This document shows, piece by piece, positions 37,573 through 39,606 of a DNA stretch of 39,606 bases; the stretch's first letter is position 1, and every line of letters begins with the position of its first letter. This DNA comes from an uncultured bacterium (GTDB lineage: Bacteria > Patescibacteriota > Patescibacteriia > Patescibacteriales > UBA12465): positions 1 to 39,606 of the forward strand of contig CAJAVM010000019.1 of assembly GCA_903945435.1 (NCBI GenBank), read 5' to 3'. Made by a program: the position numbers and the translations under genes. The notes beneath the pieces were generated by a model, which saw only the letters and a program-made list of their open reading frames with translations, was not told the DNA's origin and searched no databases.

Positions 37573-38367
37573 TTAAAGAGAGAATCTAACAAATTTGATA
37601 ATCTTAGCAGAACCTAAAATATCTTTAATTTTCTTTTTATCGTCTTTGATATATTCTTGTTCGTTAAGACAAACTTCGGAATAGTATTTACCCATTTTAC
37701 CAGCAACAATCTTTTCTACCATTTCTTCTGGCTTACCTTCCTTCAAAAGTTGAGCCTTATATATTTCCTTTTCTTTATCCATTTCTTCTTGAGCAACTTC
37801 TTCTGGATTTAAATATTTAGGATTAGCAGCCGCAACTTGCATCGCAACATCAGCTGCGATTTCACTTTTTTCTGGTTGATCAAGAGCAACTAAAACACCA
37901 ATCTTACCACCAAGATGAGAGTAAGCAGCAACTGTAGCAGCACTCAATATCTCAAAACGTTTAACACTCATTTTTTCACCAATAGTTCCACTTAAAGTAT
38001 CCAAAGACTCAGAAACAGTTGAAGCTTCAAAAGGAGCGCTCAAAAGTGCTTCTAAATTTGCTGGCTTAACATTTTTTACTACCTCTAAAATCTGCTCAGC
38101 AAAAGCTTGAAATTTTTCATTACGAGAAACGAAATCAGTTTCAGAATTTAATTCTAAAATATAACCTTCATTTTTTTCAGCATTAACAGCAACCTTGACT
38201 ACACCTTCATTAGTTTCTCTATCGGTACGTTTAGCTGCTTTAGCAATTCCCTTTTTACGTAAAATTGCGACCGCCTTTTCTAAATCGTTATCAGCTTCTT
38301 TCAAAGCTTTTTGACAATCAACCATACCAGCGCCGGTCATGTCGCGCAATTTTTTTATAAGTTCCAT
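37573..38367 (-). CDS. tsf: Translation elongation factor Ts
   Basis: 264 residues from the ATG at 38367. A frame 12 codons longer exists, but the extra residues (MPAWHFRFLLIN) are read from the intergenic hairpin and do not belong to the family. The N-terminal UBA-like domain has MELIKKLRDMTGAGMVDCQKAL, and the core has LNSETDFVSRNEKFQ. It is the nucleotide exchange factor for EF-Tu. It follows rpsB, the standard order. Confidence 0.96.
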   Translation of the reverse strand: MELIKKLRDMTGAGMVDCQKALKEADNDLEKAVAILRKKGIAKAAKRTDRETNEGVVKVAVNAEKNEGYILELNSETDFVSRNEKFQAFAEQILEVVKNVKPANLEALLSAPFEASTVSESLDTLSGTIGEKMSVKRFEILSAATVAAYSHLGGKIGVLVALDQPEKSEIAADVAMQVAAANPKYLNPEEVAQEEMDKEKEIYKAQLLKEGKPEEMVEKIVAGKMGKYYSEVCLNEQEYIKDDKKKIKDILGSAKIIKFVRFSL

Positions 38368-38429: not shown

Positions 38430-39116
38430 TTAGCTTTTTTTAACACCAAGAAGAACATCCTTGATAGTCTTTAAAACCAAAGTGATAGTTTTAGTCGCGT
38501 CGTCATTAGCCGGAATTGGGTAGTTAACTTCTTCCGGATTAACGTTAGTATCGCAAATAGCAATGATTGGAATATTCTTTTGTTGAGCTTCTTTAATGGC
38601 AGTTTCTTCTTCTTTAATATCCCAAACGAAAAGAGCGTCCGGAAGCTTATTTAAAGAAGTTAAGCCACCAACACGAACTTTTAATTTTCCGATTTCTCTA
38701 TCAAATTCCAATCTTTCTTTCTTTGTATATTTTTCTAATTTACCTGAATCTTTTTTCTCAAGCAAATCTAAGTATTTTTTAACTGATTTTTTTACAACAG
38801 TGAAATTAGTTAAGTATCCACCTAACCATTTACCAACGATATACGGTTGGCCAATTTCAGTTGCCATTTTTTGTAATGGTTCAGAAACCTGATTCTTAGT
38901 TCCAACAAATAAGATACTCTTACCCTCGGAAACTAACTTAACCATAAAATCTAAAGCTTCTTCAAACTTTTCTTGAGTCTTTCTTAGATTAATGATGTAG
39001 ACTCCATTTTTAGAAGTAAAGATAAATTGCTTCATCTTTGGGTGCCAACGATTAGTACGATGGCCGAAGTGCATGCCGGCTTTCAGCATCTCTTCAACAC
39101 TTGGTGTTTTTGACAT
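38430..39116 (-). CDS. rpsB: 30S ribosomal protein S2 (uS2)
   Basis: 228 residues. The opening is MLKAGMHFGHRTNRWHPKM, followed by NGVYIINLRKTQEKFEEAL. The C-terminal CDTNVNPEEVNYPIPANDDA is the family signature. It is slightly shorter than the E. coli protein and lacks a long tail. It is first in rpsB-tsf-PSP1 and is preceded by a long structured leader. Confidence 0.97.
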   Translation of the reverse strand: MSKTPSVEEMLKAGMHFGHRTNRWHPKMKQFIFTSKNGVYIINLRKTQEKFEEALDFMVKLVSEGKSILFVGTKNQVSEPLQKMATEIGQPYIVGKWLGGYLTNFTVVKKSVKKYLDLLEKKDSGKLEKYTKKERLEFDREIGKLKVRVGGLTSLNKLPDALFVWDIKEEETAIKEAQQKNIPIIAICDTNVNPEEVNYPIPANDDATKTITLVLKTIKDVLLGVKKS

Positions 39117-39136
39117 ATTTTTTCTTTGTTACGTCT

Positions 39137-39192
39137 GCCCCCTTGCCTCGCAATAAACGAGGAAGAAAATAATGGCCTAAGACCATAGGGGC
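39137..39192 (-). promoter_or_regulatory. Three-way-junction RNA in the rpsB leader
   Basis: On the minus-strand RNA, GCCCC (39188-39192) closes with GGGGC (39137-39141). Inside are two hairpins: AUGGUC / GGCCAU with a UUA loop (39072+100 to 39186, i.e. 39172-39186), and CCUCG / CGAGG with a 7-base loop (39146-39162). A U-G pair in the first hairpin only works on the minus strand, supporting an RNA there. It ends about 20 bases before the rpsB ATG and is a candidate S2 autoregulatory site. Confidence 0.6.
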
Positions 39193-39210
39193 ATGATGAT
39201 TAATTAAAAA

Positions 39211-39236
39211 GAGTCTGCTTAAAGACGCAGAATCTC
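39211..39236 (-). terminator. Hairpin at the 5' end of the rpsB transcript
   Basis: UCUGC / GCAGA plus GAG / CUC with a two-base bulge, followed by a U5 run on the minus strand. The expected start lies at about 39237, so the RNA begins with this terminator-like hairpin. Confidence 0.5.
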
Positions 39237-39243
39237 TATCTAT

Positions 39244-39272
39244 AAAATAAACTAATTTTAGTGAAATGTCAA
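39244..39272 (-). promoter_or_regulatory. Promoter of rpsB-tsf-PSP1
   Basis: Minus strand: TTGACA (39267-39272), 17-base spacer, TATTTT (39244-39249). The leader is about 120 bases. Confidence 0.65.
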
Positions 39273-39336: not shown

Positions 39337-39501
39337 TTAAATATTTTTCTTAAATATGTATTGCGGTCTTTTATCTAAATGCCAATATTGTTTCCAATTA
39401 CAATCCCCGAGCGAACAATCAAAAATTTTCAATTTATTTTCTAAGGCAATCTCCATATTAACCTTAGTCATATGCTTAAAGACTTCTTTTAACCAAACCA
39501 T
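39337..39501 (-). CDS. Small ORF, 54 aa, unknown
   Basis: The frame opens with ATG at 39501 and reads MVWLKEVFKHMTKVNMEI, then a Cys/Trp-containing middle (DCSLGDCNWKQYWHLD) and a basic end. The two cysteines could bind a metal, but no family is recognised. Its ATG overlaps the stop of the GC-rich frame at the window edge (TAATG). Composition matches the AT-rich genome, unlike the neighbouring fragment. It may be a real small gene or a chance ORF. Confidence 0.35.
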   Translation of the reverse strand: MVWLKEVFKHMTKVNMEIALENKLKIFDCSLGDCNWKQYWHLDKRPQYIFKKNI

Positions 39502-39605
39502 TAAGCAGTGTCTGCTGCGTATATTGGTGGATTGTGGCCACGTGGAGGGGACCTTGGGGAGCGTCTACTACTACCCCATTCATTACCCGCCGACGCCACG
39601 CTACA
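39501..39605 (-). CDS. C-terminal fragment of a GC-rich, possibly foreign ORF
   Basis: A frame open from the window edge gives 34 residues (CSVASAGNEWGSSRRSPRSP, then an Arg/Pro-rich end ...YAADTA) and stops with TAA at 39501-39503. The DNA here is far richer in GC than anything else in the window. The tail, of low complexity, is reminiscent of C-terminal tails of IS605-type TnpB transposases, but there is too little to say. Other frames are also open because of the GC content, so the coding status is uncertain. Confidence 0.3.
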   Translation of the reverse strand, partial: CSVASAGNEWGSSRRSPRSPPRGHNPPIYAADTA

Positions 39606-39606
39606 A

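Follow-up and report, generated by a model that had tools for sequence, protein, structure and literature searches.

The leader of the rpsB gene in the analyzed stretch of DNA (39,606 nucleotides, hereafter the window) is, as judged from its sequence and architecture, a Patescibacteria variant of the rpsB motif, a leader RNA that has been described in Proteobacteria, Cyanobacteria and some Firmicutes, and not in Patescibacteria (Meyer et al. 2009, PMC2704228). The fold itself is not new; what is new is the phylum, together with a rewritten pseudoknot whose predicted 3' strand is the ribosome-binding site. The source genome was close to organisms named Candidatus Falkowbacteria (Patescibacteria).

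The gene encoding ribosomal protein S2 (rpsB, 228 aa) was located on the minus strand at 38430-39116, and the next gene downstream, also on the minus strand, was tsf (elongation factor Ts, 37573-38367), which probably belongs to the same operon. Because rpsB lies on the minus strand, its leader is the minus strand from 39117 upward, covering approximately 120 nt up to about 39240; the strand of both gene and leader had been left unstated in the first-pass annotation of this DNA. A sigma-70-type promoter with the arrangement TTGACA-17-TATTTT was found on the same strand at 39244-39272 (TTGACA 39272-39267, TATTTT 39249-39244), and its position predicts a transcript start at about 39237-39240. 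Among the rpsB upstream regions of relatives, 59 of 61 carried a TTGACA element (5/6 to 6/6 match) at a spacing of 16-18 bp, and the -10 element mostly ended 105-180 nt before the AUG. At the end of the contig, positions 39500-39606 showed a GC content of 56%, adjoining sequence of 20-30% GC, and may represent an assembly chimera or a different element.

Folding of the minus strand between 39105 and 39255 yielded -42.4 kcal/mol, versus -27.1 ± 3.7 kcal/mol for 200 dinucleotide shuffles, none of which folded equally well (z = -4.1; 0/200). The minimum free energy structure included the three-way junction, confirming the fold proposed in the first-pass annotation, namely a 5' hairpin with a U-run followed by a three-way junction with two hairpins. 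The plus strand was also a good folder (z = -3.0) and folding energy alone was rejected as proof of strand, which is fixed instead by the promoter, the orientation of the gene, the G-U pairs and conservation. The G-U pairs U39187-G39142, at the top of P1, and U39182-G39176, in P2, correspond to A-C mismatches on the other strand, in agreement with what had been claimed. The upper part of helix P1 paired 39193-39187 (UGCCCCU) with 39142-39136 (GGGGGCA) in the minimum free energy structure. The stem was real, yet longer than had been drawn: beyond a bulged A (A39194), it continues through three more pairs down to 39132, with C39198, U39196 and C39195 in the 5' strand (39187-39198) and GACG (39135-39132; GAGG in most relatives) in the 3' strand (39132-39142). 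Inside P1, the optional hairpin P2 (AUGGUCUUAGGCCAU, 39172-39186) and the hairpin P3 (CCUCGUUUAUUGCGAGG, 39146-39162) were separated by the strand J2/3 (39163-39169), which reads UUUUCUU in the window and UUUUCCUU in most relatives. The nested reading of the junction was correct as such, but it had missed the putative pseudoknot that closes it (39169-39163 with 39126-39120), in which J2/3 would pair with AAGAAAA (39120-39126; AAGGAAAA in most relatives), a strand found at the position of the ribosome-binding site, 3 nt before the AUG. All these elements are on the minus strand.

Comparison of rpsB upstream regions from more than 80 relatives made a common core evident. Its 5' part consisted of (C)UCUCA or AUCAUCA, P1, an optional P2, the pyrimidine strand UUUUC(C)UU and P3, and its 3' part of the P1 3' strand, GAGG or GACG, and then AAAGGAAAA or AAAGAAAA immediately before the AUG. 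Conservation upstream of rpsB in relatives, on which the first-pass annotation had made its reading depend, was thereby observed at the level of structure. A covariance model with P1 as its sole helix, built on 12 leaders from which that of the window was excluded (R1), scored the window leader with 33.3 bits, and this leader was the best match in a scan of the whole genome (39119-39200, E = 5e-5). Context-blind scans of 334 genomes of the class and 333 of the phylum retrieved 45 loci, 42 of them with rpsB directly downstream on the same strand; the three matches lacking it (L172, L177 and L179) were discarded as low-complexity chance matches. A second model, based on 75 leaders from Patescibacteria only (R2), added four loci, all four upstream of rpsB.

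Within 74 distinct leaders, P1 was paired in 98.8% of the cells, six of its seven pairs had changes on both sides, and its covariation score was 0.84, versus 0.35 when shuffled and at most 0.22 when slid. The C-G pair beneath the bulge was invariant (74/74 leaders), and the bulged A was present in every leader row listed. At the genus level, double changes were observed at all six tested P3 pairs and at three P1 pairs, while P2 refolded with different letters. Most order-level relatives, as well as L007 and L017, had no P2, so the three-way junction does not form part of the conserved core. A check of the stems by covariance models had been proposed in the first-pass annotation; covariation was seen in P1 across the phylum and in P1 and P3 within the genus, and P2 is missing from many relatives. 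The claim of a functional structured RNA was well supported by fold, conservation and covariation, although the features highlighted in the title of that annotation (P2 of the junction and the 5' hairpin) turned out to be the least conserved, the 5' hairpin being largely restricted to the window's family. Among the approaches set aside, MAFFT combined with RNAalifold on all leaders recovered part of P1 only, because the lengths of P2, P3 and of an extra hairpin following P1 differ among leaders, and an automatic stem parser, which placed P1 wrongly in A/U-rich leaders, gave way to the covariance model. The extra hairpin, located between P1 and the pseudoknot 3' strand, was seen in several genomes (L006, L007, L008 and L011-L013), with the pairing strand kept.

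J2/3 was complementary to a strand situated 0-11 nt (mostly 2-8 nt) before the AUG, and the complementarity spanned 6-10 pairs in most leaders. Since the partner mostly lies 2-8 nt before the AUG, this pairing would mask the ribosome-binding region. When the type of each strand was assigned with independent anchors, a CC in J2/3 was matched by GG in the other strand in 47 leaders and a single C by a single G in 23, only 4 of 74 being discordant. On the S2 tree, the joint change from CC/GG to C/G took place at least two times: one event is shared by the window's family and its sister family f7, and another falls in family f2. Matched changes of their own were found in single leaders of other lineages, namely L180 (UUAUCCU/AGGAUAA), L178 (UUCUCUUU/AAGGAGAA) and L176 (AAUUCCUU/AAGGAGUU). 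In a strand-swap test across 28 families, complementarity was 9.2 for the native partners versus 8.8 for swapped ones, with 660 of 20000 swaps performing as well; this small drop on swapping reflects the low complexity of the strands, one being U-rich and the other A-rich. Double changes of the pseudoknot were absent within the genus, where the strands hardly vary, and an imperfect or wobble pseudoknot was observed in a few genomes (L021, L148 and L174). Statistical support for the pairing beyond low complexity can be regarded as moderate, and the comparison of sequences makes it highly probable that a pseudoknot between J2/3 and the ribosome-binding site exists.

The first-pass annotation had not recognised the fold as a described S2 leader; its architecture is nevertheless that of the published rpsB motif (Meyer et al. 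2009, PMC2704228). Both share the position directly upstream of rpsB (in the window and in 42/45 and 4/4 of the retrieved loci), a long P1 (98.8% paired and covarying here), a junction with variable or absent P2 and P3, the pairing of J2/3 with a 3' extension after P1 (seen in nearly all of the present leaders), the GAGG that immediately follows P1 and the C-A step that precedes it. The difference resides in the pseudoknot, which is GGGGU/ACCCC-like in the known leaders compared and UUUUC(C)UU/AAG(G)AAAA in Patescibacteria, and which is placed upstream of the Shine-Dalgarno sequence in gamma-proteobacterial leaders (24 nt before the AUG in E. coli), adjoins it in the alpha-proteobacterial ones compared and coincides with the ribosome-binding site in Patescibacteria. 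The elements are ordered as CACACA, P1, GGGGU, P1' and GAGGCAUAACCCC in E. coli, and as CUCUCA, P1, UUUUCCUU, P1' and GAGGAUUAAAGGAAAA in the Patescibacteria clade. Leaders from E. coli, alpha- and gamma-proteobacteria, Firmicutes, Fusobacterium and Actinomycetota were used for comparison, and R2 landed on the known position of the motif in 6 of 12 leaders from outside Patescibacteria, E. coli included. The best matches were those of Acetoanaerobium (E = 0.0015) and Bacillus (E = 0.019), the other four being correctly placed with E values of 2-4; six correctly placed matches out of 13 correspond to a binomial p of about 1e-6. In E. coli (L125), R2 aligned to positions 276-346, within the t44 match at 261-347. 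The shared architecture and the placement of R2 on the motif in half of the known leaders (6/12) argue that the leader is homologous to the rpsB motif.

The E. coli rpsB leader is also represented in Rfam as t44/tff RNA (RF00127), which occupies the same position as the Patescibacteria leader; it models gamma-proteobacterial sequences and does not include the pseudoknot. RF00127 matched the controls (E. coli, Aeromonas, Catenovulum and Legionella), and gave no match on the window or the tested Patescibacteria leaders even at E values of 5-10, nor at rpsB in 40 genomes; the window leader and those of its relatives stayed below its gathering threshold (44 bits). Membership in RF00127 as defined was rejected, given that the model does not score the leader.

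The best explanation for these patterns, and a likely one, is autoregulation by S2, in which the protein would bind the leader, mask the ribosome-binding site and limit rpsB. S2 as the ligand, as well as the direction and the translational level of control, are suggested by the position of the leader and by E. coli, where S2 represses translation of rpsB-tsf (review PMC10931766). The known E. coli system does not supply the masking step, since the ribosome-binding site is reported to lie outside the operator in that organism (PMC10931766). According to the proposed mechanism, transcription would start near 39238 and P1, with its invariant bulged A, would form around P3 (and around P2 in the window's genus), and the pyrimidine strand between P2 and P3 would then pair with the purine-rich one located 2-8 nt upstream of the start codon; in this pseudoknotted state, ribosome loading would be blocked. 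With S2 in excess over free 30S subunits, the protein would bind the fold made up of P1, P3 and the pseudoknot, stabilise the knot and shut off rpsB and tsf, whereas under scarce S2 the weak, A-U-rich pseudoknot would open and translation would proceed. An S1 protein of four domains was also encoded in the genome; in E. coli, S1 is known to act alongside S2 as co-repressor. The reading of the leader as a functional RNA, and one that probably regulates S2, was well supported; the defining pseudoknot had been missing from the first-pass annotation.

Alternatively, S2 (with or without S1) could bind the rpsB-motif RNA and exert control through P1 and P3 together with mRNA stability or standby binding, the J2/3 pairing merely tying up a U-rich strand. 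The E. coli leader, with its ribosome-binding site outside the operator (PMC10931766) and its pseudoknot 24 nt before the AUG, is consistent with such a scheme, as is a 5'-terminal hairpin that could protect the mRNA; we consider it unlikely for Patescibacteria, where the pairing partner lies 0-11 nt from the AUG and both strands change together.

The 5'-terminal hairpin (GAG + UCUGC / GCAGA + CUC, 39236-39211) and the five U residues that follow it (39210-39206) occupied positions 39206-39236 of the minus strand, beginning about at the predicted transcript start. This terminator-like element raises the possibility of transcription attenuation, in which hairpin and U-run would form a terminator close to the promoter, read-through being governed by the downstream fold or by S2, for instance when the 5' hairpin pairs instead with the 3' strand of P1. 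Consistent with it, among 25 promoter-bearing genes sampled from the genome, rpsB alone had such a 5' hairpin, which was moreover found in 23 of 59 relatives (3.3 expected), mostly of family f1, and the closest genomes contained short helices between the 5' hairpin and the P1 3' strand (e.g. UCUGC/GCAGA, UCCGC/GCGGA and UUUGCUC/GAGCAGA). However, this alternative pairing hardly exceeded what chance would give (combined p = 0.017; swap p = 0.04), the U-run is short, and many lineages in which P1 and the pseudoknot are retained lacked the hairpin (L036, L042, L047, L049, L054 and L095), which was on this account rejected as part of the conserved core. Attenuation appears improbable on these grounds.

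The Shine-Dalgarno setting of the genome was also analyzed, drawing on the 33 ORFs of the window and on contigs C1 and C3, which were sampled from this genome. Shine-Dalgarno-like sites preceded 3 of 140 sampled genes, compared with 13 of 140 in a control window, and the 16S 3' end had an intact anti-Shine-Dalgarno sequence (CACCUCCU). A second, different 16S 3' end was present in genome G012 (G012:C61:310-353), suggesting that this assembly is contaminated. In a genome nearly free of Shine-Dalgarno sites, the leader could be an unregulated and strong one, its stem and A-rich site aiding initiation with no involvement of S2. This seems very unlikely considering that P1 covaries across the phylum, that the C-G pair next to the bulged A shows no variation, and that homologous leaders elsewhere are regulated by S2 (PMC10931766).

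Three relatives with AAGGA-type rpsB sites had an overall Shine-Dalgarno rate at background, and tsf carried a site of this type in 3 of the 35 lineages that have such rpsB sites. In the window's family, the GG was lost from the rpsB site while the pairing was kept, suggesting that the pairing, rather than Shine-Dalgarno strength, is under selection. The AAGGA-type rpsB site may be kept as the pseudoknot strand and possibly also as a sensor for 30S subunits without S2, the supply of S2 being set by how the pseudoknot competes with the 16S 3' tail, a proposal that we regard as doubtful. A comparable case is rpsU (bS21) of Flavobacterium, controlled by ribosomes lacking bS21 (PMC9976891): there too the ribosome-binding site of a ribosomal-protein gene stands out in a Shine-Dalgarno-poor genome, although no leader fold was described for rpsU (PMC9976891), and the parallel is an analogy only.

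These results extend the S2 leader to the Patescibacteria, a phylum in which ribosomes and gene control have received very little study, and its presence there would imply that the motif is old or widely spread in bacteria. The knot appears to be rewritable, from GGGGU/ACCCC to UUUUCCUU/AAGGAAAA, with the architecture unchanged. The mechanism of S2 repression in E. coli is still unclear because the ribosome-binding site falls outside the operator; a homologous leader in which a predicted pseudoknot strand is itself the ribosome-binding site would offer a simple mechanism, and one that is testable.
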